The position numbers and the translations under genes are program-made. A stretch of 28,455 nt of DNA, taken from IMG/VR virus record IMGVR_UViG_3300032073_002705, positions 1 to 28,455 of that record; one strand, written 5' to 3'. This stretch comes from a virus. The first letter of the stretch is position 1. Every line of letters starts with the position of its first letter. The notes beneath the pieces are model-generated. The model was not told where the DNA came from and did not search any database. It saw nothing but the letters and a program-made list of their open reading frames with translations. Positions 12,308-27,596 of this stretch are shown piece by piece.

Positions 12308-14020
12308 ATGATAGTATTTCAAACTCTCAGTTGGAAAAACTTTCTATCAACCGGGAACACTAAAACAGTTTTAGATCTACGGAGACACGATAATACTTTG
12401 GTGTCGGGAGATAATGGAGCAGGTAAGTCAACCATGCTTGATGCTTTGACATTTGCTCTATTTGGAAAATCGTTTCGTGGTATAAACATCCCACAACTTC
12501 CCAACAGTATCAATGATAAAGACTGTGAAGTAGAGATCGTTTTCACCGTGGGTAAAGACACATATAAAGTAATTCGTACTCTGAAGCCTAAAAAGTTCGA
12601 GATATTCAAGAACGACACTTTGCTACCACAAGATGCACAATCTAAAGACTATCAGAAGATTCTTGAAGAACAGATTTTAAAAATGACATACAAGTCATTC
12701 TGTCAGGTTGTTATTCTTGGATCATCTAATTACATTCCTTTCATGCAATTGAGTGCATCTGATCGAAGATCCGTTGTAGAAAATCTGTTAGACATTGATG
12801 TGTTTTCTGTGATGAATACTCTTGTTCGTTCTAGATTGCAAATGACAAAAGAGTACGTAAAGAACATTGATACTAAACTCGAAATTGTAAAGAGTAAGGT
12901 AGACGAAAAACAAAAATTTATAGACACGCTAGAAAAGAAGTCTAGCGATTCTGTTGACAAATATAAAAAAGACATAGATGATTCTCAGAAACAAATTGAA
13001 GAGATTAACAGAGAGATAGAAAAAAATAAAGTTCGTATAAGTGAACTTATGTCCACCATTGAAGATCGAAACGATGTTCCTACTGAACTCATAAAATTAG
13101 AATCTGAAGAAAAAGAATACAAGAGTAAGATAAAGAACATCAAAAAGAATCTAAAGTTCTATGAAGAAAACGATACATGTCCTTCTTGTAAACAAGATAT
13201 ACAGAAGCATCATAAAGAATGTATGATCGGAGAGAAGAACAAAGAAAAAGAAGAAGTGGAAACATCTTTAACTGCGTTGTCTGTTCTTGTAGAAAATATA
13301 GAAACAAGACTAAGCACAATAAACAGCATACTTGCTGATGTTGACGTAGTAGAAAAGTCTATATCTGAAAAACAAAACAAGATTAGTGCCTCCTCACAAT
13401 ACATTAACAAGTTGCAGAAAAATATAACTTCGGTTTTATCTGAGGGTACTGAAGTCCAAGAAACCAAAGACGAACTGAATCAGTTACTAGGTGAAGGTAC
13501 ACAGCATGTCCAAAGAAGAAAAGAACTTATTGAAGATAAACACTATTATAGTATTGCTTCTACTCTTCTAAAGGACAGTGGAATCAAATCTAAGATTATC
13601 AAACACTATCTTCCTATTATGAACAAGTTGATTAACAAGTATCTGGCAGATATGGATTTCTTCTGTCAGTTCAATCTGGATGAAAACTTTGACGAGACAA
13701 TCAAAAGTCGTCATCGTGACGAGTTTACTTATCATAGTTTTAGTGAGGGAGAAAGATTGAGAATCGACTTATCTCTTCTTCTTGCTTGGCGAGAAATAGC
13801 ACGACTGAAGAACAGTGTGAACTGTAATCTTCTGATTCTTGATGAGGTATTTGATTCGAGCCTAGATAGTGTAGGCACTGAAGAGTTTCTTAAACTCTTG
13901 ACAAGATTCGGAGATCGTGCTAATATATTCGTAATCAGTCATAAGTCAGATTCTATGACCGATAAATTCAGTAACCATTTAGTCTTTGAAAAGAAGAATA
14001 ACTTTAGTAGAATAAAATGA
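12308..14020 (+). CDS. 46: Recombination endonuclease subunit gp46 (Rad50/SbcC-like)
   Basis: Gp46 is the ABC-type ATPase partner of gp47 in the end-resection complex. The 570-residue length equals the T4 protein (560) within a few residues. Walker A GDNGAGKS is at 34-41. Long coiled-coil arms (~175-290 and ~300-430) flank a zinc-hook CPSC motif at C291-C294. The C-terminal half carries the signature HSFSEGERLRIDLSLLLAWRE and Walker B LLILDEVFDSSLD near residue 500, then VISHKSD. ATG 12308 lies two bases after the preceding stop. The stop overlaps the methyltransferase start (ATGATG at 14017), linking that accessory gene to the operon. Confidence 0.96.
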   Translation: MIVFQTLSWKNFLSTGNTKTVLDLRRHDNTLVSGDNGAGKSTMLDALTFALFGKSFRGINIPQLPNSINDKDCEVEIVFTVGKDTYKVIRTLKPKKFEIFKNDTLLPQDAQSKDYQKILEEQILKMTYKSFCQVVILGSSNYIPFMQLSASDRRSVVENLLDIDVFSVMNTLVRSRLQMTKEYVKNIDTKLEIVKSKVDEKQKFIDTLEKKSSDSVDKYKKDIDDSQKQIEEINREIEKNKVRISELMSTIEDRNDVPTELIKLESEEKEYKSKIKNIKKNLKFYEENDTCPSCKQDIQKHHKECMIGEKNKEKEEVETSLTALSVLVENIETRLSTINSILADVDVVEKSISEKQNKISASSQYINKLQKNITSVLSEGTEVQETKDELNQLLGEGTQHVQRRKELIEDKHYYSIASTLLKDSGIKSKIIKHYLPIMNKLINKYLADMDFFCQFNLDENFDETIKSRHRDEFTYHSFSEGERLRIDLSLLLAWREIARLKNSVNCNLLILDEVFDSSLDSVGTEEFLKLLTRFGDRANIFVISHKSDSMTDKFSNHLVFEKKNNFSRIK

Positions 14021-15600
14021 TGAAACCTTATTATGAACGTAATGATTATGTAATTGATTCTGATATCAATTGCAATTTTGAAGATCTGCTAGAGATGACT
14101 CCTGATCAATTTCGACAGTGGGTTGTTGATATGCGTAAAGAGATAAAGGTTGTATGGGATACATATGGTTGTCCTCCACGGACTGGTAAAGATGAGAAAG
14201 ACATCGTGGATTCATTCAACAAGATTGCAGAGTATCCTGTACATCAGTTTACCCACACAGACGAACTGTCTGATGTTGATGATGATGTGATAATCAACAA
14301 ATCTAGAATGGGTGTTGAGGTTGATCAGTGGTTTTCAAATATGTTTAAGACTAGAATCAACTATACAGAGAAAGACAACGGATACTCAATTTACGATCTA
14401 GTAGCAGACGATACACGATTAGATCAGGTTGTCAAGGGTGCTACTCGTCATCTTCGTCGGGACTCCTTTTATACACACGCACTCTCTGCAATAAAGCACA
14501 GCACCAAATACGCCATCGTAGATGTTGCTAGTGGTGATGAGTGGATGGGTGTGTTCTTCTCTAATCCTTCTATCTTTTCCGGACATGATTTTCTTCTTGA
14601 ACAGATCAAGATCCGCGAAGGTGCAAATTCTGGATACTTCCAACTTGAACAGGATGATGTTCTTCAACTTACCAGAGAACAAGTAGAGAAGTGGAAGGAC
14701 AAGATGTCCTACAGACATCATTCAACTTTCGATATTAATACTATGCCAGATGATAAAGTATATGCAATTCGTATATATAAAACGGGAAGAAAAGTTTTTC
14801 CTGCTGGATTTAAATCATTTAGAATCGGGTATATTCAACCTGCTGTGAATTTCCCCCCAATGACTGCGAAATATTTATATGAACGATTTACCGAAGACAT
14901 CAAAGATCAAGAACGAATTGTTATCTACGATCCATCAAGTGGGTGGGGTGGCCGCATACTTGGCGCTATGGGTTGTCGGGATGATCGTAGCATTCATTAT
15001 GTGGGGACTGATCCAAATCCTGATAATTTTTATGGGGATAATTCTGGTAGTAAGTACGAGTCTCTCGCTACTTTTTACAATACCAAAACTTATAGAGGAA
15101 ATCCATTCTTTTCCAGAACTAATACGTTCCGGCAATTTATGGAAGGATCAGAAGAAATCGGAAAACACCCAGACTTCCAACAGTACAAAGGAAACGTAGA
15201 TCTTATATTTACATCACCTCCATATTTCAATAGAGAGGCTTATAGTGAAGACGAAAACCAATCATATAAGAAGTATGGATCATCATATGAATCATGGCGA
15301 GATGGATTCTTGCGACCAACACTGGAGACATGCTATGAGTGGTTACGACCTAACAGATATTTACTATGGAACGTGGCAGATGTATTAGTTAGTGGAAAAT
15401 ATCTACCAATTGAACAAGACAGTATTGACATTCTGGAATCATTAGGTATGATATACAGATACACATTAAAGATGGGACTAGAGGGAATGCCTGGTCAGAA
15501 TCGAGTAGACGAAGATGGTATTCCTAAATGTAAAAACTTTTGTAAAGTAAATGATAAATATTTGAAGTACGAACCAGTGTTCGTGTTTTTCAAGCCTTGA
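14017..15600 (+). CDS. SAM-dependent DNA methyltransferase with long N-terminal region
   Basis: This 527-residue protein has a C-terminal amino-methyltransferase domain. Motif I, which binds S-adenosylmethionine, is YDPSSGWGGRILGAMG at 304-319. An acidic residue suited to motif II follows (VGTDPNPDN, ~329-337), and motif IV, the catalytic loop, is FTSPPYF at 398-404. SPPY is characteristic of N4-cytosine and some N6-adenine methyltransferases. The order I before IV is the gamma/alpha-type order, not beta. The N-terminal ~270 residues are not recognised and may hold the DNA-recognition part. No restriction endonuclease gene is adjacent, so it is an orphan enzyme, perhaps protecting phage DNA. 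It overlaps gene 46 by four bases; two consecutive ATG codons make the exact start uncertain by one residue. Confidence 0.82.
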   Translation: MMKPYYERNDYVIDSDINCNFEDLLEMTPDQFRQWVVDMRKEIKVVWDTYGCPPRTGKDEKDIVDSFNKIAEYPVHQFTHTDELSDVDDDVIINKSRMGVEVDQWFSNMFKTRINYTEKDNGYSIYDLVADDTRLDQVVKGATRHLRRDSFYTHALSAIKHSTKYAIVDVASGDEWMGVFFSNPSIFSGHDFLLEQIKIREGANSGYFQLEQDDVLQLTREQVEKWKDKMSYRHHSTFDINTMPDDKVYAIRIYKTGRKVFPAGFKSFRIGYIQPAVNFPPMTAKYLYERFTEDIKDQERIVIYDPSSGWGGRILGAMGCRDDRSIHYVGTDPNPDNFYGDNSGSKYESLATFYNTKTYRGNPFFSRTNTFRQFMEGSEEIGKHPDFQQYKGNVDLIFTSPPYFNREAYSEDENQSYKKYGSSYESWRDGFLRPTLETCYEWLRPNRYLLWNVADVLVSGKYLPIEQDSIDILESLGMIYRYTLKMGLEGMPGQNRVDEDGIPKCKNFCKVNDKYLKYEPVFVFFKP

Positions 15601-15611
15601 AAGGAAACATT

Positions 15612-17057
15612 ATGGCTAAAAAGAAGAAGACAAGTGACTTAACTTATATTATGAACCCTCGTTGCGGGTGGTGTAAAAAGGCGGATCCTGTAGTAGAAGA
15701 ACTTCGTGCTGCTGGACATGATATTACGATTCTAGATGTTACCGATACTGATGCTGCAAAGAAGTCTCAAGAACTTCAGGCAAAGTTTAACATCCAGTGT
15801 GGTACTCCTTTGTTCCTTGATGCCAAGACTGGTAACAGTGTATGTGGTATGCGAGGTAAGGAGATTCTTGAGAAGTGGGCAAACGGAGAAGAGATCCCTG
15901 CACCTCCACCTCGTCCGAAGCCCCAGAACGCTCCTCAGCGTCCTCAGAACGCGCCTCAGCAACCCCCAGCAGAACAATGGCCCAAGACTCAGTTCATTAA
16001 GTTGGATTATGTTTGGGTGGATGGTAAGAAGAACAAGCAACTTCGTTCTAAGACAAAGTTTGTAACCCTCACGCTAGAACAGCCACCTACTCCTGAATAT
16101 CTTCTTGGTGTTCTTCCTGAGTCTGGCTTTGATGGTTCGAGTACAAACCAAGCAAAGACGGAAGACAGCGATTGTATCCTCCGACCTGTTAGGGTTTATC
16201 CTAATGTTCAGGATCGAGGAAGAGATCCTTCGTTCGTTGTTATGTGTGAGGTATTTGATTCTAATGGCAAACCCCATAAGAGCAACACTCGAGCCACACT
16301 TCGTCGTACACTAGAACGTGTTGGTGGTGCTGATGATCTCTGGTTTGGTATTGAACAAGAATACACGATTATAGAATCAAACAGTGACAAACCAATTGGA
16401 TGGCCTGATGGTGAACCAAAACCACAGGGTGATTACTACTGTGGAATGGGTAGCACTAATGTCAAAGGAAGGCGACTTGCAGAACAACATGCGTTCCTCT
16501 GTAACAACAGTGGAGTCCTTCTAGATGGGTTTCATCCTGAAGTCATGCTCTCCCAATGGGAGTATCAGACTCGTCCCAAGATCGCTCTTCGTGCTGCTGA
16601 TGATCTCTGGTTTACACGATATCTTCTTCACAAGACTGCTGAGATGATGGACATGACAATCAGTTTCGATCCTAAGCCAGTAGATGGTGACTGGAACGGA
16701 TCCGGCGCACACATCAATTTCTCAACCAAGGTAATGAGAGAATCATCTAGTATGGACTATCTAAACCTCATGTGTGCAACTCTCAAGGACACACACGATG
16801 AAGCAATTGCTTCATACGGACCAGGAAATGAACGTAGGTTGAGTGGTAAGCACGAAACTTCTGCAATTGATATCTTCAGTTGGGGAGAGTGTGATAGATC
16901 TGCTTCAATTCGTATCCCACACAGCACATCCAATAACAATGGTATTGGTCATGTAGAAGATAGACGACCTGCTGCTAACGTAGATCCTTATGAAGCACTG
17001 AACTACCTTACTACTCAGATCGTAACAATCTCTCAAGAAGTTCTCGTCGCTACATAA
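15612..17057 (+). CDS. Glutaredoxin-like domain fused to type II glutamine synthetase
   Basis: The protein has 481 residues. Residues ~1-95 form a glutaredoxin/thioredoxin-like domain with redox motif C18-G-W-C21 and cis-Pro segment GTP at 64-66. A Pro/Gln-rich linker (~96-124) follows. Residues ~126-481 are a full-length glutamine synthetase of the eukaryotic-type GSII class: DYVWVDG, FDGSSTNQ, WFGIEQEYT (E248, E250), EVMLSQWEYQ (E310, E317), GSGAHINFST (H367), RRLSGKHET (E415), DRSASIRIP (R429, R434) and VEDRRPAANVDP (E449, R451). These correspond to the metal-, glutamate- and ATP-binding residues of human GS, so ATP-dependent glutamate + ammonia to glutamine activity is likely. ATG 15612 follows AAAGGA; the in-frame TTG 15597 lies in the methyltransferase end. 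It is an accessory metabolic gene, unusual in a phage. Confidence 0.9.
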   Translation: MAKKKKTSDLTYIMNPRCGWCKKADPVVEELRAAGHDITILDVTDTDAAKKSQELQAKFNIQCGTPLFLDAKTGNSVCGMRGKEILEKWANGEEIPAPPPRPKPQNAPQRPQNAPQQPPAEQWPKTQFIKLDYVWVDGKKNKQLRSKTKFVTLTLEQPPTPEYLLGVLPESGFDGSSTNQAKTEDSDCILRPVRVYPNVQDRGRDPSFVVMCEVFDSNGKPHKSNTRATLRRTLERVGGADDLWFGIEQEYTIIESNSDKPIGWPDGEPKPQGDYYCGMGSTNVKGRRLAEQHAFLCNNSGVLLDGFHPEVMLSQWEYQTRPKIALRAADDLWFTRYLLHKTAEMMDMTISFDPKPVDGDWNGSGAHINFSTKVMRESSSMDYLNLMCATLKDTHDEAIASYGPGNERRLSGKHETSAIDIFSWGECDRSASIRIPHSTSNNNGIGHVEDRRPAANVDPYEALNYLTTQIVTISQEVLVAT

Positions 17058-17082: not shown

Positions 17083-17832
17083 GTGTCTAAAAGAAATTCA
17101 AAAAAACTACTTGAACGTGCATACGGAAAAGAACCAGAATTTAATGCATTTGATCTTAGTTCAGACGAATACGATTGGAATCTGTCCAAGGCATATTCTT
17201 GGTACAGAACAAACTCTACTACAAAGCAAGAAAAGGCATGGACGTTAGACTATATGAAAGAGAAAGGATTCTCGAAGGATGATATGTCCTATGTTAAGTC
17301 TTTGCCAGCAAAAAGTTTTTTAAATCAAGGAAGATTTTTCAGACTTAGTACTAGGGGTGCTACACACAAGGCACAACGAATCAAAGATATGGATGCGTTT
17401 CTTTCTTCTTCTATCAGAGAAGGTAAGAAGAAGAAAGAAACTGCTCCACCCAGAAAGAGTGTTCAGGATTATATCCGTGAACAAGTAGAAGAGTATCTAG
17501 GCGATCTTGAACATAAGATCGATGATATTACTGCGAAATTGTCAAAGAAAGAAAAGGTTGAGTTTTCTATTCTTTCTTGGCTAAAATCTAATGATGTAAA
17601 GTCAGTTCAGGCAAAACGTATTGCAGAATATTGGAAACCTCTTGCTGATGAGATTCAACAGGCAATAAATAAAGAGGATCCTCAACTCACAGAAGGATAT
17701 AGTTTTATGGGTAGGGTTGCACTTAAGCGTCTTCATAAAACACTTATTGAGTGGATTGAAGTATGCAGTCAGTATGCAATTGATGTTAAGCCTATTAGAA
17801 AAAAGAGAAGAAAGAAAAATGTCTCTAAATAA
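17083..17832 (+). CDS. Hypothetical protein, basic, possible coiled coil
   Basis: This 249-residue protein is not recognised. The N-terminal half contains DYNLSKAYSWYR-like aromatic segments (EYDWNLSKAYSWYRTN, ~29-44) and FLNQGRFFRLSTRGATH (~80-96). A Lys-rich linker (~112-125) leads to a helical, probably coiled-coil segment SVQDYIREQVEEYLGDLEHKIDDI and a C-terminal helical domain. It ends in a strongly basic tail (RKKRRKKN). Composition suggests nucleic-acid contact, but no catalytic motif is visible. The start is GTG 17083 with AAAGGA ten bases before it; no ATG is available near the ribosome-binding site. Its last 14 bases overlap the next gene. It lies in the accessory stretch between genes 46 and rnh. 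Confidence 0.75.
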   Translation: MSKRNSKKLLERAYGKEPEFNAFDLSSDEYDWNLSKAYSWYRTNSTTKQEKAWTLDYMKEKGFSKDDMSYVKSLPAKSFLNQGRFFRLSTRGATHKAQRIKDMDAFLSSSIREGKKKKETAPPRKSVQDYIREQVEEYLGDLEHKIDDITAKLSKKEKVEFSILSWLKSNDVKSVQAKRIAEYWKPLADEIQQAINKEDPQLTEGYSFMGRVALKRLHKTLIEWIEVCSQYAIDVKPIRKKRRKKNVSK

Positions 17833-18157: not shown

Positions 18158-18988
18158 ATTTTATTGGACAACAATCAGTTGATAATTGCCAGTTTGTTTC
18201 AGTCAATGAAGCAAGAGGCAGAATTAAGCGAAGATTTGGTACGTCATCTTATTCTTAACACGTATAGGATGTACAGGACTAAATTCAAAGCGAAGTATGG
18301 TGAAATTGTTATCTGTAGTGACGGTGGTAGCGATTGGCGTAAGGAATTGTTTCCGCTATACAAAGCAAACAGAAAGAAGAGTCAAGCAAAGTCTGAGATC
18401 GACTGGTCTAAAATGCATGACATCATGAATGTTATTCGTGGAGAGATGCAAGAGAACTTCCCGTACAAGAATGTACAGATCAGGGGAGTAGAGGCAGATG
18501 ACATCATTGCTACTCTGGCAAAACATTACCACACACAAGAAAAGATCTTGATCGTTTCTAATGATAAGGACTTCCAGCAGTTGCAGAAGTATCCTAATGT
18601 GGAACAATACAGTCCACTGAAGAAGCGTTTGGTTGCGTGTCCGGATCCTGAACAGTTCATAGTCTATCATATTATCAAAGGCGACACCTCTGATGGAATT
18701 CCAAACATTCTATCTGATGACGATTCTTTTGTAGATGAAAACAAAAGACAAAAGCCTTGTGGCGAGAAACGTATTGCTGAGATAAAAGAAGATCTGACTA
18801 CATGGAGTAATACAGATAATTGGAAGAGAAATAAATCGTTAATTGATTTTTCTAGTATACCACAGGACGTAGAATCTGTTATACTAGAGGAATATCATAA
18901 AGAACCAAAAGGTAATCGAGGAAAGATTCTCAATTACTTCATTGACAAAAAACTAAAAATACTAACAAATCATATAGAGGAATTTTGA
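18155..18988 (+). CDS. rnh: RNase H / 5'-3' exonuclease (FEN-like)
   Basis: T4 RNase H removes RNA primers and flaps from Okazaki fragments. The product (277 residues from the ATT start) has the FEN/PIN-type acidic residues. D5 is in ILLDNNQ, D56 in VICSDGG, E113/D115/D116 in GVEADDIIATL, D137/D139 in VSNDKDFQQL, and D177/D180 in KGDTSDGIPN. A Lys/Arg-rich patch around LYKANRKKSQAK (~68-79) fits the bridge or arch region that threads the flap. The chosen start is non-canonical; with TTG 18164 the protein would begin M-DNNQ and lose only three residues. It is followed one base later by the small gene before the clamp gene, consistent with a replisome operon. Confidence 0.88.
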   Translation: MILLDNNQLIIASLFQSMKQEAELSEDLVRHLILNTYRMYRTKFKAKYGEIVICSDGGSDWRKELFPLYKANRKKSQAKSEIDWSKMHDIMNVIRGEMQENFPYKNVQIRGVEADDIIATLAKHYHTQEKILIVSNDKDFQQLQKYPNVEQYSPLKKRLVACPDPEQFIVYHIIKGDTSDGIPNILSDDDSFVDENKRQKPCGEKRIAEIKEDLTTWSNTDNWKRNKSLIDFSSIPQDVESVILEEYHKEPKGNRGKILNYFIDKKLKILTNHIEEF

Positions 18989-19201: not shown

Positions 19202-19211
19202 TTATATTATG
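19202..19211 (+). promoter_or_regulatory. TTATATTATG initiation element at gene 45 (candidate RegA site)
   Basis: The decamer is identical to those at uvsY and gene 44, and it places the start codon as its last three bases after AAGGAGA. In T4, RegA represses gene 45 translation at the start region, so this is a reasonable operator candidate. Confidence 0.4.
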
Positions 19212-19901
19212 ACAACAGCAACAAAAATGACACTTTCACGAACTACGTTGGATGTTCTGAAGAACTATGCGTCCATCAACTCCAACATTCTGGTACGACC
19301 CGGAAACACTCTTACTACAATTTCTGGTGTGAAAAACATCATGGCAGAAGCAGTGGTTGAAGAAACTTTCGATACTGAGTTTGGTATCTGGGATCTTAAC
19401 AAGTTTCTTGGAACGATCTCTCTGTTTGATAGTCCTGTGTTTGATTTCGAGGACAATTTTGTCAGGATTACAAATGGAAACAGCAAGTCAGAGGTAGTAT
19501 ATTATTATTCTGCACCAAACCTACTTACCACTTCCAGCAACAAGATTAATATGCCTGAGAGTGTTATTAGTTTTCAACTGAAGGAAACAGATCTTCAGGA
19601 ACTCCAGAAGGCAGCGTCCGTTCTACAACTTCCAGATCTTGTAGTGAGATCGGGTAATGATAAGATTGAACTTGCAGTTCTTGATAAGGCAGATACTAGC
19701 ACCAATGTATATTCTATTGATGTTGGTGATCTCACGGACAGTTCTGAGTTTTCTTTCTACTTCAAGGTAGATAACATGAAGATGATTTCAGGTGATTATG
19801 ATGTAGACATCACCGAGAAAGTAGTCAGTCAATTTACACACAAGACACAGGATATTAAGTATTGGGTTGCGTTGGAGTCTGATTCTACTTTTACTCGTTG
19901 A
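19209..19901 (+). CDS. 45: Sliding clamp gp45
   Basis: Gp45 is the trimeric PCNA-like clamp that tethers the DNA polymerase and, in T4, also activates late transcription through gp55/gp33. The 230-residue product matches T4 gp45 (228) in length and layout: an N-terminal KMTLSRTTLDVLKNYASINSNILVRPGN, EFGIWDLNKFLGTISLF at ~57-73, and the second repeat starting near LKETDLQELQKAASVLQLPDLVV. It has the usual high content of beta-prone segments and acidic character. Start ATG 19209 has AAGGAG upstream. Gene 44 follows after 16 bases, the conserved 45-44-62 order. Confidence 0.95.
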   Translation: MTTATKMTLSRTTLDVLKNYASINSNILVRPGNTLTTISGVKNIMAEAVVEETFDTEFGIWDLNKFLGTISLFDSPVFDFEDNFVRITNGNSKSEVVYYYSAPNLLTTSSNKINMPESVISFQLKETDLQELQKAASVLQLPDLVVRSGNDKIELAVLDKADTSTNVYSIDVGDLTDSSEFSFYFKVDNMKMISGDYDVDITEKVVSQFTHKTQDIKYWVALESDSTFTR

Positions 19902-19920: not shown

Positions 19921-20856
19921 ATTGAAGAATATCTTTGGGTTGAGAAGTACAGACCCCAAAAAATTGAAGACTGTATTCTGCCTGAGTCCATTACGGAAAC
20001 TTTCAATGATATGGTTAAGGTGGGAGAATCACAGAACCTTCTACTTTCTGGATCGGCGGGTTGTGGTAAAACCACAATTGCTAAAGCACTGTGTAATGAA
20101 CTGGACACAGATTACTTGGTAATCAACTGTTCAGAGGATGGGAATATTGATACTCTTAGAACCAAGATCAGAAACTTTGCCAGCACTGTTTCTATTACAG
20201 GTAATAAGAAGATTGTTATTCTTGATGAGTTTGACTATTCAAACGCACAGTCCACACAACCCGCTCTGCGTGGGTTCATTGAAGAGTTCTCGAAGAACTG
20301 TAGGTTCATTCTTACCTGTAACTTCAAGAACAGAATCATCGAACCTCTGCATTCTAGATGCACCTGTATCAACTTTAGCATTCCCAAGGACGAGAAACCT
20401 AAACTTGCAATTAAGTTTATGGATCGTATTAAGTTCATTCTTGATTCCGAAGGTGTAAAGTATGAAGAGAGAGTCCTTGCAGAGTTGATCACTAAACACT
20501 TCCCTGACTTCAGGAGAGTCATCAATGAACTTCAGAGATACTCTGTGTCTGGTGGGATTGATACAGGAATACTCACACAGATCGGTGAGATACATATTAA
20601 GGATCTCATGAAGAACATGAAGGACAAGGACTTTACTTCGTGTAGGAAATGGGTAGTTGAGAATCTAGACAACGCACCAACTGAGTTGTTTAGAAAAATA
20701 TATGATGGATTATATGTACATCTGAATCCATCTTCAATTCCACAGGCGGTGTTGGTGCTTGCGGAATATCAGTATAAGTCTGCGTTTGTAGCAGATCAAG
20801 AAATTAATTTGGTAGCATGTATTGTAGAACTCATGATGGGATGTGAATTAAAATGA
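19918..20856 (+). CDS. 44: Clamp loader ATPase subunit gp44
   Basis: Gp44 is the AAA+ ATPase that, with gp62, opens and loads the gp45 clamp. The 312-residue product (T4: 319) begins with the RFC-type WVEKYRPQKIEDC. Walker A GSAGCGKTT is at 45-53, and Walker B VILDEFD is at about 100-106, with D103-E104-F-D, the T4-like DEFD variant. The SRC arginine-finger motif is at S147-R148-C149 in EPLHSRCTCINF. The C-terminal collar domain follows. The last bases overlap the next gene (ATGA at 20853), so translation of the downstream co-chaperonin gene is coupled. Confidence 0.96.
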   Translation: MIEEYLWVEKYRPQKIEDCILPESITETFNDMVKVGESQNLLLSGSAGCGKTTIAKALCNELDTDYLVINCSEDGNIDTLRTKIRNFASTVSITGNKKIVILDEFDYSNAQSTQPALRGFIEEFSKNCRFILTCNFKNRIIEPLHSRCTCINFSIPKDEKPKLAIKFMDRIKFILDSEGVKYEERVLAELITKHFPDFRRVINELQRYSVSGGIDTGILTQIGEIHIKDLMKNMKDKDFTSCRKWVVENLDNAPTELFRKIYDGLYVHLNPSSIPQAVLVLAEYQYKSAFVADQEINLVACIVELMMGCELK

Positions 20857-21146
20857 AAAAGTTTAAAGCAGAAGGTGATCACTTGATCTTGGAAAAGATC
20901 AATTACGACGAAGAACAAACAACAGCAGGAGGAATCATTTACAAGCCTAAAGATGTGCTTGATTCTTCTTTCTCGGAGGCAAAGATCGTTTCAATGGGTA
21001 AGGGATTTCCCATTCCAAACGGTGATATCCCAGAAGTAAATTATAAGGTAGGCGATGTTGTTCTCTATGATGCTAGATCTCGGATGGGAATGCATCAAGA
21101 TTTTGATGTAATTCGACGAGAACATGTAATTGCAGTGGTGAGTTGA
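20853..21146 (+). CDS. GroES-like co-chaperonin (gp31-type role)
   Basis: The 97-residue protein has the GroES layout: HLILEKINYDEEQTTAGGIIYKPK at 10-33 matches the first strand plus mobile loop, with GGII-Y in place of the GroES GGIVL that contacts GroEL. EAKIVSMGKG at ~42-51 matches the GEVLAVGNG strand, then NGDIPEVNYKVGDVVLYD (~56-73) and the final HVIAVV. In T4, gp31 replaces host GroES so that GroEL can fold the capsid protein gp23; the same role is inferred here. It shows more similarity to bacterial GroES than T4 gp31 does. It lies between genes 44 and 62, overlapping both, which splits the clamp-loader pair. Confidence 0.88.
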   Translation: MKKFKAEGDHLILEKINYDEEQTTAGGIIYKPKDVLDSSFSEAKIVSMGKGFPIPNGDIPEVNYKVGDVVLYDARSRMGMHQDFDVIRREHVIAVVS

Positions 21147-21996: not shown

Positions 21997-22647
21997 ATGC
22001 AAACATTAGTGATCAGTTTCTATAGTGACATAGAAGACAACACTTATTATAGTGATCATGGAAAGAGACTACAGAAAGAACTAGACTCTTTTGCCATACC
22101 TTGTAATATAGAGCATAAAGAAAGTCTAGGTACTTACAGAGACAACTGTCTAAGTAAGCCTAGATTTATACTAGAAAAATTACAACAATATAACAGACCC
22201 TTACTGTGGTTAGATGTTGATAGTAGAGTTCATAAACCACTTGATATATTCGACACCTTTGGAGATGACGTAGATGTAGCAGTGGCGTCTTCTAATGCAC
22301 AATTGTCTGGTGTAAAGGCATCTCCTATCTTCTTCAGGAATAACGACAAAGCAAAGTCTGTATTACATATGTGGATGAGTGCAATTGATAAGATCAAAGA
22401 AGACAATCATCCAGTGTTTGATCATGAACCTTTCTTCGGTGTTTTACATGCACTTGCTCCCTCGATGAACATTGGACTGGTTGGTCCTGAGTTTTGTATT
22501 TGGCCTGGTTATACCAATGAGAATACATGCATCACAATGGGACTCACTGACTCAGACACGAAGAAAGAGAACCTTAGAAAAATGGGTATTGCCGAAGACG
22601 CAATAGAATTTCAATCACCGGGAAATAAATATGACATGGATAGTTAA
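21997..22647 (+). CDS. Glycosyltransferase-like protein (GT-A, DxD)
   Basis: This 216-residue protein resembles nucleotide-diphospho-sugar transferases of the GT77-like type. It has a beta strand start (LVISFYSDIEDN), then YRDNCLSKPRFILEKLQQY, and the metal-binding LLWLDVDSRVHKP with D73-V-D75. A central acceptor region follows, with FDHEPFFGVLHAL and a Pro/Gly-rich end. No membrane segments are present. It begins 16 bases after regA with TTTTATTATG at the start and no strong ribosome-binding site, and it overlaps the next gene by 17 bases. It is the first gene of the glycan cassette. The specific sugar and acceptor cannot be told. Confidence 0.72.
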   Translation: MQTLVISFYSDIEDNTYYSDHGKRLQKELDSFAIPCNIEHKESLGTYRDNCLSKPRFILEKLQQYNRPLLWLDVDSRVHKPLDIFDTFGDDVDVAVASSNAQLSGVKASPIFFRNNDKAKSVLHMWMSAIDKIKEDNHPVFDHEPFFGVLHALAPSMNIGLVGPEFCIWPGYTNENTCITMGLTDSDTKKENLRKMGIAEDAIEFQSPGNKYDMDS

Positions 22648-23572
22648 AGGACTACCTTTCAGTAGACATCAATCATCATGCTCGAATACCAAACCAACAT
22701 CATTTTCTTGGGATGATGATATTGATCTTGATGTTGAGTTGTGGGTAGATTATGCACTCGAAGAAGGTGTACACACCCCCCGAGAAAAAAAATATAAGTA
22801 CGCATGGATATGTGAATCCCGTGCTATCCTTCCTTTTCTGTCAAGACTGTATGACACAGACAAAGATGGAAAAAAGATTGTTAATGGAATTACTCCAACA
22901 TTACAGTCGATGATTGATTCTTATGATATCATCTTTACGTGTGACTGGGATCTTATTGCACTTCATGATAAAATCCAATTTACATATGCTGGTAGCACTT
23001 TACCTTGGATTTTTCCTGTTGATCCTTTCGACACTATTAAACTAAAATCTTGTTCGTTTGTTTCGTCCAATAAGAATATGTGTCTAGGACATTCTTATAG
23101 AAAAGACGTATATGATTATATCAAAAAAGAAGATTTGGGTATTGATGTATATGGATCAATTACTGGAGAAGGTTATTTCGGTGCCTGTGACAGGTGTTGG
23201 GAACGAGGGGGAGAAGAAGGATGGATGGACAAACGATCTGCAATCGTTGATTACAAATTCAGTATTGTTATGGAAAATGATTTCTACCCTTCATATTTTA
23301 CAGAGAAGATAACAGATTGTTTTTCTTCCTTTACCATACCGATATACATGGGAACATCTGATCTTTATCGCTGGTTTGATTCAGATGGAATCATACAGGT
23401 ATCTTCGGTTGACGAAATGAAAGAATGTATCAAATATTATAGTGATAACGACCTATGGGATGATCTGTATAAAGAAAAATCATATCATATAAAACAAAAC
23501 TGGGAAAAGGTTCAACAGTTACGGCACCCTGACGACATTATCTTTGCACAAATAAAAGAAGCATCAAAATGA
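22631..23572 (+). CDS. Fucosyltransferase-like glycosyltransferase (GT10 type)
   Basis: This is a 313-residue protein. Residues 208-243 carry the C-terminal nucleotide-binding signature of the alpha-1,3-fucosyltransferase family: YKFSIVMEN, then SYFTEKITDCFSSFTIPIYMG (family pattern F-x-E-N, TEK, P-x-x-x-G). The N-terminal part (~30-200) would be the acceptor domain. It contains a paired Cys motif GACDRCW (~184-190). GDP-fucose as donor is inferred from the family and may not hold for phage members. The gene overlaps the previous one by 17 bases and the next by four (ATGA), so the cassette is one translational unit here. The same signature recurs in the fused protein at 24290. Confidence 0.78.
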   Translation: MTWIVKGLPFSRHQSSCSNTKPTSFSWDDDIDLDVELWVDYALEEGVHTPREKKYKYAWICESRAILPFLSRLYDTDKDGKKIVNGITPTLQSMIDSYDIIFTCDWDLIALHDKIQFTYAGSTLPWIFPVDPFDTIKLKSCSFVSSNKNMCLGHSYRKDVYDYIKKEDLGIDVYGSITGEGYFGACDRCWERGGEEGWMDKRSAIVDYKFSIVMENDFYPSYFTEKITDCFSSFTIPIYMGTSDLYRWFDSDGIIQVSSVDEMKECIKYYSDNDLWDDLYKEKSYHIKQNWEKVQQLRHPDDIIFAQIKEASK

Positions 23573-24279
23573 AGTATGTGACATTTACTAATATAGGTTC
23601 AATTGAACTTTGTGATAATTTTCTCCAGAGTGTTAGGAATCTTGGTATGGAAAAGGATGTAATTGTATATTGTCTTGATTCAGAATCACAAAGAATCCTA
23701 GAGAGTAAATTTGATTGTGAGTTTAGTCTGTTCGAGAACGATTCAATAGAAGCACCATTTCATATGTACGGATCTCAAGAGTTTAGAAGAGTAACAAAAA
23801 ACAAGATACAAATTATATTAGATGCATTACAGAGTAAAGAAAGTATTGTATATACAGATTGTGATGTTGTTTTTAGGAAATCCCCCACCCAGTTCATTTT
23901 AGATAATGATAAAGATGGTGTTGATATCTTCTTTGCTACTGATGATCCATTTATGAAGATGTGTACAGGATTCATGTATGTCAAAAATACAGAATCAATT
24001 CATAGATTATTTCATGAATACTTCATTCATAACGAAAAGTATGATGAGGTAAAAAACGAACATATGTTTGATCAGGAAATCATAAACGCAATTCTTCAGA
24101 ACAACCAAACGAATATTACATATGGAGTGTATCCACCGCAGTTTGTTAGCAACGGACATATATATTTCAGTGAGTCAAATCAAACAGGAAATGAATATGT
24201 TGTTCATGCTAATTTCACGATGGGAAAAGACAACAAAATCAACAGATTAAAAGGTGCTAATCTTTGGTTCAGTACTTAG
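23569..24279 (+). CDS. Nucleotide-diphospho-sugar transferase (GT77-like)
   Basis: This 236-residue protein begins with a strand MKYVTFTNIGSIELCDNFLQSV. ESIVYTDCDVVFRKSP at 91-106 carries the DxD motif D97-C-D99, and ATDDPFMKMCTGFMYVKNT (~127-145) follows, the layout of the PF03407-type GT-A family. The C-terminus includes FDQEIINAIL and VVHANFTMGKDNKI, a position where these enzymes place a metal- or donor-binding His. It is cytoplasmic, with no membrane segment. It overlaps the preceding fucosyltransferase-like gene by ATGA and ends 10 bases before the fused glycosyltransferase. Confidence 0.8.
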   Translation: MKYVTFTNIGSIELCDNFLQSVRNLGMEKDVIVYCLDSESQRILESKFDCEFSLFENDSIEAPFHMYGSQEFRRVTKNKIQIILDALQSKESIVYTDCDVVFRKSPTQFILDNDKDGVDIFFATDDPFMKMCTGFMYVKNTESIHRLFHEYFIHNEKYDEVKNEHMFDQEIINAILQNNQTNITYGVYPPQFVSNGHIYFSESNQTGNEYVVHANFTMGKDNKINRLKGANLWFST

Positions 24280-24289
24280 AAAGTATATT

Positions 24290-25882
24290 ATGAAAACAGA
24301 AGCAACAATTATTAATGGTCATTATTTATTTGAACCCGGTGTTCTAAAATTTGATAAAGATGTGGAAATACACTGTTGTCGTTTTGGTTCTTCGGCGGCA
24401 AGGGTTAGTGAAGAATGGGAACCAAACTACCCACAACATAATATTATGTTTATGAATCCTCAAGCCTATAAGGTTTTAATTACTAGTACCGAATCATATC
24501 TCTCTCCGAATAGAGAACTTCCGGAAGTTATACTAGCAAACCATAAACAGTACGATCTCGTCCTGACAACCGATCCCCTGATTATTAATAGTTGTGATAA
24601 TGCAGTATTCTTTGGTTATGGAACTACATGGCTAAATCAAGGACACATAGATCATCCGGACGGATTGGGAAAATTCGATGAGGAGTATGTTAGAGAATTT
24701 TGGAACGATAAAGAATTTGGTTTGAGTTTTCTTTGTTCAATACATTCAAGAAAGTCAACCGGATATGATTTGAGAAGAGATCTGTGGATGAACAAGGATA
24801 TGATCAGTATCCCTACGAGTTTTTATGCAAGTCCCAGAAATCCACCACCTCTACCACCTGGTCCTATTGGTGCTGATTTGCTCTTACCAAATGATGATAG
24901 ATCTGTGGTGTTCAATACTCAGTTTTCGTTGTCAATTGAAAATGCAATAGTAGATAATTATTTTACAGAAAAATTAATGGATTGTTTTTTGACTAAAACA
25001 GTTCCAATTTACTATGGATGTCCTAATATTAATTACTTCTTTAACTCAAGAGGAATTATTGATATCACACATGATGCTGATATAGAAACTACTATTAATA
25101 AGTTGAACAACATCAATGAAGAAACATACGAGAATATGCTCCCCTTTATTGAAGAAAACTATGAAAAGGCGTTAGAGTATTGTAAGGATACATTTGCGGA
25201 AAGAGTTAGAATGCAAATTGAAACATCAATGAATCCTGCGGTAAAAAACAACGAAGGTAAGTTGCTCTCTATAGGAATATTATCTCTTGAGGATGATCAG
25301 AGAAAAACATATTTAAATAGATTATTGAATGTATTGAATTCTCAAATGTCAACACAAGACAAACAAGATATAGAAATTATTGTAAATGTTGATGATGGAT
25401 CTAAATCGGTGGGTACAAAGAGAAACGAGGTGCTAGATAATGCATCCGGAAAGTATATCTGTTTTGTTGATGACGATGATATGGTGTCTGATAATTACAT
25501 TGAGAAGATTCTTAATGTTATCAAAGCACACCCGGACGTTGACTCGATAGGATTTACTGGAATGTTCTACACCAATGGCACTCCTCTAATGCATTTTAAA
25601 CATGCAAATGAATATGGTGGTCACTATAAAGACTTTAAAGGCGTTCAGCATAGACCTATAAACCATCTTAATCCAGTAAGACTTGAGATTGCAAAACAAA
25701 TAAAGTTTACAGAAAAGAATTTCGGAGAAGACTCTGATTATTGTGATGCTCTTTTTGATTCTAAGTTAATTAAAAAAGAAGTCATTATAGATGATACTTT
25801 GTATCATTACTTATGGAGTCCTGAAGAGTCCCGAACACATGTAAATGTAAATAGTGCTATACCCGGAGTTACTGACGTATGA
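24290..25882 (+). CDS. Bifunctional glycosyltransferase: GT10-like + GT2 fusion
   Basis: This 530-residue protein joins two catalytic domains. Residues ~1-310 are fucosyltransferase-like, with SLSIENAIVDNYFTEKLMD then CFLTKTVPIYYGCPN at 213-246 matching the GT10 signature. A Pro-rich insertion PRNPPPLPPGPIG lies at 182-194. Residues ~325-530 are a GT2 domain: LLSIGILSLEDDQRKTYLNRLL, then VNVDDGSKSVGTKRNEVLD at 366-384, and FVDDDDMVSDNYI at 392-404 with the metal-binding acidic run. The frame is open without interruption. ATG 24290 is chosen because the in-frame ATG 24254 lies inside the previous gene; the preceding GTATATTATG resembles the initiation decamer of uvsY/45/44. A two-step transfer on the same glycan is inferred. 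Confidence 0.82.
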   Translation: MKTEATIINGHYLFEPGVLKFDKDVEIHCCRFGSSAARVSEEWEPNYPQHNIMFMNPQAYKVLITSTESYLSPNRELPEVILANHKQYDLVLTTDPLIINSCDNAVFFGYGTTWLNQGHIDHPDGLGKFDEEYVREFWNDKEFGLSFLCSIHSRKSTGYDLRRDLWMNKDMISIPTSFYASPRNPPPLPPGPIGADLLLPNDDRSVVFNTQFSLSIENAIVDNYFTEKLMDCFLTKTVPIYYGCPNINYFFNSRGIIDITHDADIETTINKLNNINEETYENMLPFIEENYEKALEYCKDTFAERVRMQIETSMNPAVKNNEGKLLSIGILSLEDDQRKTYLNRLLNVLNSQMSTQDKQDIEIIVNVDDGSKSVGTKRNEVLDNASGKYICFVDDDDMVSDNYIEKILNVIKAHPDVDSIGFTGMFYTNGTPLMHFKHANEYGGHYKDFKGVQHRPINHLNPVRLEIAKQIKFTEKNFGEDSDYCDALFDSKLIKKEVIIDDTLYHYLWSPEESRTHVNVNSAIPGVTDV

Positions 25883-26757
25883 AAAAGGTAATTGCTTTTA
25901 GTTTATGGGGAAACGACCCAATGTATAATGTTGGTGCTATAAAGAATGCTAGTCTTGTTCAGATGGTATATGGTAATTCTTGGACATCTCGGTTTTATTT
26001 AGCAGACGATGTTCCACAGGAAACAATAGAAGAGTTGAATAAAGTTCCAAATACAGAATGTATTATGATGGGATCCCCGAATGATTGGTATGGGACTTTC
26101 TGGAGATTTCTTGCTATAGATGATACTGATATCGCTATGTTTAGAGATACAGATTCAAGAATAACAGACAGAGAGTATGCTGCCGTGAAGCAATGGTTGG
26201 ATAATGATGAATCAGTACATATAATGAGAGATCACCCATATCATTCTGAAACCATACTTGCTGGTATGTGGGGATGTAAATCAAAGGATCTTATTAATCT
26301 TATTAATGAGTTTCAATATAAAAATAACGATTTGCCTACGGTTACTACATTGAAGGAATCTATTGCTCATTGGACTCGATATAAGATTATTGAAGCAACT
26401 ACAGAGGGTGGAGTGCATAACTACAAAGGCAACGATCAGCAATATCTGAGAGAGGTTGTATATCCATGCGTGTATAAATCTTCTTTTATACATGATTCAT
26501 TTACATCGTACAATCCGTGGTCTAATAGAATGAACGACGGCGGGAATATAAGAGCAGAGATGTTCGGATCTGCCGAATTAAACACCGGATTCCCATCATT
26601 GAGAAAACGAAAAGATACCTTAACTATGGGGAAGAGTATAAATGATATTATTGATTGGAATGATTTTGTCGGCCAGGTTTATGACGAGAATGACATACCA
26701 AATGAAGAATACGCACTACTTATAAAAAATATAAGTAAAAAAATTCACCCGAGTTGA
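25879..26757 (+). CDS. Putative glycosyltransferase, DxD-containing, family unassigned
   Basis: This 292-residue protein begins VIAFSLWGNDPMYNVGAIKNASLV and has WRFLAIDDTDIAMFRDTDSRI at 75-95, where R89-D-T-D-S-R fits a GT-A nucleotide-sugar-binding DxD. HIMRDHPYHSETILAGMWGCK (~114-134) follows. A late GGVHNYKGNDQQYLREVVYP segment (~176-195) contains the Asp-Gln pair typical of acceptor or catalytic loops in this type. I recognise the pattern from phage and bacterial polysaccharide clusters but cannot name a CAZy family. It overlaps the fused glycosyltransferase (ATGA at 25879), which supports a shared pathway. Confidence 0.7.
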   Translation: MKKVIAFSLWGNDPMYNVGAIKNASLVQMVYGNSWTSRFYLADDVPQETIEELNKVPNTECIMMGSPNDWYGTFWRFLAIDDTDIAMFRDTDSRITDREYAAVKQWLDNDESVHIMRDHPYHSETILAGMWGCKSKDLINLINEFQYKNNDLPTVTTLKESIAHWTRYKIIEATTEGGVHNYKGNDQQYLREVVYPCVYKSSFIHDSFTSYNPWSNRMNDGGNIRAEMFGSAELNTGFPSLRKRKDTLTMGKSINDIIDWNDFVGQVYDENDIPNEEYALLIKNISKKIHPS

Positions 26758-26780
26758 AACACAAGACAAGGTAACTACAT

Positions 26781-27596
26781 ATGAACAAAGATAAATTATG
26801 CGTGGTTTCTGTTGGAATTGACGGAAGAGAACCATATTCGCAGTTCACAAAAATTCTTCAACAGCAGTCAATTGAAAATGGTTATGATGCAATGGTGTGG
26901 ACAAATGATTTTCCACCCGGTAGTCCTACTCATGATCAAGTTCCTTATGCATTTAAACCTTTTGCAATTCAAGCGGCACGGGATGCAGGATATACTAAAA
27001 TCCTTTGGATGGATTCTAAATGTTATATTCTTTCTCAAGTAACTCCTATAGAAGAAGCACTAGAGAAAGATGGATATTGGTTTGTAGAGGACGGGATGAC
27101 TGTTGGTGAGTGGTGTAAAGATTCTGCACTCCCTCTTTTTGGTATAACCAGAGAAGAAGGATTCGGTATGAACGTAATCGCAGCAAAACATTTTGCTTTA
27201 AATTTTGAACATAAAATTGCTAGGGATTTCTTTGATGCCTATATGGGGTATGCAGTAGATAACGATGGTGAAGCATATATTGGTCCGTGGACAAACGAAA
27301 ACGGAGAAGCATCGACAGATGAAAGAGTCAGGGGACATAGACATGATCAGGTGTGTGGTAGTGTAGTACGACATAAACTTGGTATGAAACTATCACCAAA
27401 TAATGTTGTGGATTGGAGAGACGGATGGAAATACAAAGATGAACCAAATCCACACGGTACATTTGATCCTCTAATTCTTTTTGATGGGTATTTGCACGGC
27501 ACAGCATTAAATTGTACATGTCCTATTTGTTCAGAAGTAAATCCTAAGATTATAAGCGGAGAAATTGTTCCTCCACCCTGTTTTTGGAGACAATAG
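26781..27596 (+). CDS. Putative glycosyltransferase-like protein with Cys-rich tail
   Basis: This 271-residue protein begins LCVVSVGIDGREPYSQFTKIL. KILWMDSKCYIL is at 73-84, where the GT-A DxD would be, but it reads D78-S-K80, so the second metal ligand is missing. This could mean altered chemistry or a metal-independent enzyme. Conserved-looking segments include HDQVPYAFKPFAIQAARDAGY and RGHRHDQVCGSVV. The C-terminus has CTCPICSEVNPK, a CxCxxC group that might bind a metal. The gene starts 23 bases after the previous one with CAAGGTAACTACAT before ATG. It is the last member of the cassette before a gap of 82 bases. The function is inferred from fold-like pattern and context only. Confidence 0.62.
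   Translation: MNKDKLCVVSVGIDGREPYSQFTKILQQQSIENGYDAMVWTNDFPPGSPTHDQVPYAFKPFAIQAARDAGYTKILWMDSKCYILSQVTPIEEALEKDGYWFVEDGMTVGEWCKDSALPLFGITREEGFGMNVIAAKHFALNFEHKIARDFFDAYMGYAVDNDGEAYIGPWTNENGEASTDERVRGHRHDQVCGSVVRHKLGMKLSPNNVVDWRDGWKYKDEPNPHGTFDPLILFDGYLHGTALNCTCPICSEVNPKIISGEIVPPPCFWRQ

Follow-up and report, generated by a model that had tools for sequence, protein, structure and literature searches.

A thioredoxin-like domain joined to a type II glutamine synthetase in uncultured T4-like phages

Genomic setting of the fusion gene

The window, by which we mean the whole stretch of 28,455 nucleotides analyzed here (IMG/VR record IMGVR_UViG_3300032073_002705), carries the T4-like markers gp20, gp23, gp45/44/62, gp46/47, gp55, UvsY, UvsW, and RegA. 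Its gp23 is closest to those of Synechococcus phages (identity up to 59%), and its core genes follow the order of cyanophage S-CAM9 from uvsY to regA; core genes and gene order thus bear out the T4-like assignment made in a preliminary description of the sequence. The interval between gp46 and gp45, which holds other genes in S-CAM9, is bordered on the left by a gp46-like SbcC subunit (12308..14020, + strand, as are the following genes up to gp45) and on the right by the gp45 sliding clamp (19209..19901). In between lie a methylase-like gene with a TSPPY motif (14017..15600), here called g14017, the fusion gene (15612..17057), a gene matching phrog_11903 (17083..17832), and a T4 RNase H-like gene (18164..18988), which places the fusion gene among gp46, rnh, gp45, gp44, and gp62. 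A small Cpn10 (GroES-like) co-chaperonin is encoded between gp44 and gp62 (20853-21146), and glycosyltransferases (GT10 fucosyltransferase-like, GT2, and nucleotide-diphospho-sugar transferase) are found downstream of regA (21997-27596), as in many relatives.

The fusion gene is a single uninterrupted open reading frame of 481 aa. An AAAGGA motif in the sequence (15600..15605, +) resembles a ribosome-binding site and lies 6 nt upstream of the ATG at 15612, with TTG 15597 as an alternative start. The product consists of a thioredoxin-fold redox domain (aa ~8-94; 15633..15893, +) with beta-alpha-beta-alpha-beta-beta-alpha topology, a Pro/Gln-rich linker (aa ~95-127; 15894..15992, +) that is predicted to be disordered from the AlphaFold model (pLDDT below 50 at aa 99-121), and a type II glutamine synthetase (GSII) domain (aa 128-481; 15993..17054, +), so that the preliminary description was right to see a CGWC domain, a linker, and a full-length GSII in one frame.

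The same fusion is encoded by at least 28 further IMG/VR contigs from several metagenomes (27 in the census described below, plus L249), 24 of which were found in the first viral scan and the remainder in later ones. The carriers are uncultured, mostly marine T4-like phages, and identity to the window protein ranges from 97% down to about 48%, some contigs being near copies. For the redox and GS domains, dN/dS was 0.03-0.23 (eight pairs), and both domains are evidently under purifying selection. An assembly or frameshift artefact, which the preliminary description had named as a possible refutation, is ruled out because the fusion recurs on 28 further contigs from several metagenomes and its dN/dS is low.

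Wherever the contigs extend far enough, the fusion gene is found in the gp46-gp45 interval, mostly directly after g14017; it fills a variable slot of cyanophage-like T4 phages. Among 51 g14017 loci whose downstream genes could be read, 16 carry the fusion, 7 an unfused GSII (L238, L240, L241, L258, L262, L263, and L271), and 28 no GS, and in many contigs without GS a relative of the 17083..17832 product directly follows g14017. The contigs with unfused GS showed no redox module elsewhere on the same contigs. As a cyanophage marker, psbA was sought in 18 contigs, which are fragments, and found in none. One relative without GS has an NAD-dependent epimerase (sugar nucleotide) gene in the slot (L233:5581-6480). 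The g14017 product has a mean column identity of 87% over 14 contigs, in most of which it is more conserved than gp23 or gp46; it matches 140 IMG/VR stretches, yet the phage collection contains no relative of nearly full length.

The glutamine synthetase domain

The domain, about 350 residues long, has the sequence and fold of GSII: phmmer matched it to solved GSII at an E value of 9e-86, and the full-length predicted model has Streptomyces GSII as its top Foldseek match (TM 0.91, normalized by target). The residues for metal, glutamate, ATP, and the ammonia site are present, and every active-site residue placed from the sequence in the preliminary description (E248, E250, E310, E317, H367, E415, R429, R434, E449, and R451) does align to the GSII active site. 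The mapped metal, substrate, and ammonia-site columns, the latter with the motif D174 and S177, are invariant in 19 of 19 fusions and 13 of 13 standalone viral GS, in keeping with the earlier claim that this is a GSII-class enzyme whose catalytic and binding residues are retained. The NCBIfam GlnII equivalog profile (NF041605) matched over nearly its whole length at 335.7 bits, below its cut-off of 500 bits; substrate identity is therefore read from the active-site residues, and we speak of a GSII-class enzyme, not of a GlnII equivalog. In fold, length, and active-site residues the enzyme resembles GSII of maize (2d3a) and Streptomyces (4bax), from which it differs by its extra N-terminal redox domain; it belongs to a deep branch of viral sequences only, and its identity to the best matches listed from cells is 42-48%. 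Overall, it looks like an active, catalytically competent GSII.

The redox domain

The N-terminal domain had been called a glutaredoxin, a label that profiles and fold do not favor. Its best redox-family match was Pfam thioredoxin PF00085, which just missed its cut-off (22.6 against 23.5 bits), whereas glutaredoxin PF00462 stayed further below (15.6 against 22.9 bits); searches of Pfam, PHROGs, and NCBIfam gave no match to the module family that reached threshold. Modeled alone (pLDDT 86), the domain matched thioredoxins with Z up to 10.4 (Thermus thioredoxin), and the alignment begins at about residue 17 of many thioredoxins, so the first beta-alpha unit is missing. A minimal topology of this kind is common to glutaredoxins. 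Among the aligned redox domains the active-site CGWC (C18 and C21; 15663..15674, +) is invariant (24 of 24), as are C63-G-T-P66 (15798..15809, +), the expected cis-Pro loop, and C78-G79 (15843..15848, +), giving four invariant cysteines (C18, C21, C63, and C78). The glutaredoxin CPYC/CGFS motif and the TVP and GG glutathione motifs are absent from the alignment, which has CGWC, GTP, and CGM/CGF in their stead. With thioredoxin (PF00085) the domain shares the thioredoxin fold, a CXXC motif, and the expected cis-Pro; it differs in having CGWC and not the canonical WCGPC in every aligned row, in lacking the first beta-alpha unit, and in carrying two additional invariant cysteines. Judged by sequence, then, it is a divergent thioredoxin-fold domain and not a glutaredoxin, and we name it thioredoxin-like because PF00085 is the best of the redox families yet falls below its cut-off.

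In a census, the domain was attached to GS in 27 proteins, to a short helical tail in 13, to a coiled-coil tail in 22, and to a YY..VVGD domain in 11, the majority of this last set also having a Lys-rich tail. Besides GS, then, its partners include at least three tails unrelated to one another; in every architecture aligned, CGWC, CGTP, and CG are invariant. T4-like phages account for many of the longer contigs that encode the non-GS proteins. Fifteen contigs carry the module without GS and 12 carry GS without the module, all of them fragments, and on three fusion-phage contigs the fused domain was the sole thioredoxin-like match detected. In a tree built from the redox domain alone (100 columns), GS-linked and short-tail forms are intermixed and a single GS-linked clade is weakly rejected (AU p 0.038), which suggests exchange of the redox domain at the hinge. 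The coiled-coil proteins (L185-L209) have a repeated 'WKxxYEKWxKENDHLPN' and a C-terminal 'LDxLxxHLGVK'; for one of them (L203 record, G022:C1:33962-35402), a match to canonical thioredoxin (69 bits, read with one in-frame TGA) is located roughly 1 kb away.

Phylogeny and gene neighborhoods of viral GSII

In the GSII tree, the fused GS and their syntenic unfused counterparts share a single branch made up of viral sequences only (100/98). Its sister group consists of eight standalone GS from other phages, and the three longest contigs of this group carry a T4-like gp23. Both together are set apart (100/99) from cellular, plant, and megaphage GSII, and the phylogenetic check that had been called for thus places the fused GS outside cellular GSII. 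The megaphage enzymes (LR756501, LR745206, and LR756502) are likewise GSII in phage records, at 42-45% identity, but no redox domain was matched on them, and in the tree they lie outside the fusion branch, interspersed with GSII of cells and of other viruses. The fused proteins split into two sets, and each has an unfused set as its sister; accordingly, the redox domain would have been acquired on two occasions, or acquired once with two later losses. A single simple fusion event, compatible with the one clade of the first tree, was abandoned once the syntenic unfused GS had been added and the clade split. A cellular source of the fusion was likewise rejected, since none of the 80 closest GSII from bacteria or archaea carries the domain; in 369 genomes from a single bacterial class, thioredoxin-like matches were weak throughout, at about 31 bits or less.

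The sister GS share a conserved gene order, PolB-RecA-DnaB-primase-GS-ThyX-RNR, and in several contigs the primase, GS, and ThyX genes overlap. The cluster was seen in L025, L026, L027, L030, L033, L034, L039, and L042, with the exceptions that L026 ends after GS and that ThyX of L027 is only a remnant.

Discussion

The reading we favor, with a probability of roughly 0.58, is that the fusion combines a working phage GS for nucleotide supply with a mobile, general thiol-reducing module, not a dedicated switch. It would operate as follows: (i) a phage-owned type II GS would be expressed alongside the phage replication genes and convert glutamate, NH3, and ATP to glutamine; (ii) this glutamine would feed nucleotide, and probably also sugar, synthesis in infected nitrogen-poor bacteria; (iii) the N-terminal domain, a thioredoxin-fold module that is mobile and specific to phages, would be attached flexibly through the linker and most likely serve as an autonomous thiol reductant tethered near GS and its neighbors, keeping them reduced while infection proceeds. 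A class II enzyme would probably escape the adenylylation and small-protein control that the host exerts on the usual bacterial GSI.

A role of viral GSII in nucleotide synthesis draws its best support from the sister cluster and would extend to the fusion by kinship; the nucleotide-supply role put forward in the preliminary description fits a sister branch whose GS genes are flanked by a primase-like gene on one side and ThyX/RNR on the other. On the long fusion contigs, which are incomplete, neither an RNR large subunit nor a class II glutamine amidotransferase was matched. That a tethered reductant might protect the synthetase or its neighbors is plausible, because plant GSII enzymes can be stabilized and activated under thiol-reducing conditions (PMC8219043). 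As the domain occurs on unrelated phage proteins and close relatives of the fused GS do without it, it looks like an interchangeable phage add-on module more than a dedicated switch. A bolder version, which we offer tentatively, holds that marine T4-like phages have a clip-on thioredoxin-fold module that recombines onto various proteins at the conserved Pro-rich hinge and, when placed on GSII, yields a self-reducing or redox-responsive GS that couples phage nitrogen assimilation to the redox state of the infected cell.

A different emphasis is given by redox gating, in which a disulfide with a regulatory role in GS would be reduced by the tethered domain, so that activity would depend on the redox state, or the light state, of the infected cell, in the way suggested for chloroplast GS2. 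DTT increases and oxidation decreases the activity of plant GS2, overexpression of thioredoxin m raises its activity and content, and the same study cites older proposals that thioredoxin controls GS in algae and cyanobacteria, although direct redox activation could not be shown in it (PMC8219043). The fusion would hold both partners together, and Cys212, Cys277, and Cys297 of GS are invariant, but they are so in all groups, so that no GS cysteine is specific to the fused proteins; in addition, the slot of the fusion can hold an unfused GS instead, and the domain occurs on proteins without GS. C388 was rejected as a fusion-specific partner: it is present in 17 of 19 fused and 4 of 13 standalone GS, but also in 6 of 6 unfused syntenic GS. 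On these three counts (cysteines, unfused alleles, and non-GS carriers) the earlier suggestion that the domain regulates the synthetase is weak, and a dedicated redox switch, possible but unsupported, seems to us unlikely.

Host thioredoxin serves as the processivity subunit of T7 DNA polymerase, and the redox-like domain might similarly be a docking or scaffolding module whose chemistry carries little weight, GS being merely tethered to a phage complex. Its presence on coiled-coil and Lys-rich tails with no evident redox role agrees with such a function, but CGWC, CGTP, and the fourth cysteine are invariant in all architectures aligned, and we regard docking as decidedly improbable. Least probable is a ligase of GS fold that would use another amine, for instance to modify DNA or glycans, together with the methylase-like neighbor or the glycosyltransferase cluster, an alternative raised in the preliminary description that gains from the adjoining methylase-like gene, the several glycosyltransferases downstream, and the missed GlnII cut-off but is weakened by the invariant ammonia-site D174 and S177 and all other mapped catalytic residues, by the methylase-like gene lacking an adjoining GS in 28 of 51 loci, and by the sister GS beside ThyX and RNR.

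With regard to prior knowledge, none of the matches among 50,697 phage records spans both parts of the fusion, and a search with just the redox domain gave no match there, consistent with the earlier impression that this is not a standard phage protein. The BFVD viral structure library held no full-length counterpart, and no paper on a thioredoxin-GS fusion in phage was found among open-licence papers. Viral GSII has been known since 2007, when the GOS survey described marine viral type II GS as a large viral group in the type II GS tree (PMC1821046), and GS has been reported in moraphages (PMC12619734). Both thus place GS on marine or aquatic viruses; in the portions available of these two papers, a thioredoxin fusion is not mentioned, the type of the moraphage GS is not stated, and the GOS survey assigns viral GSII no function or genetic setting. 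The fusion and its module family appear to be unreported in the searchable open-licence literature. Viral GSII can now be given two homes, a replication/nucleotide cluster in one T4-like branch and the gp46-gp45 slot in another, and a widespread group of T4-like phage proteins can be recognized by the redox module. The fused, unfused, and absent states in otherwise syntenic phages amount to a natural experiment on the effect of tethering a thioredoxin to an enzyme. The PHROGs family phrog_21628, listed as 'unknown function', matches the GS domain (15993-17054) and is probably a glutamine synthetase family.
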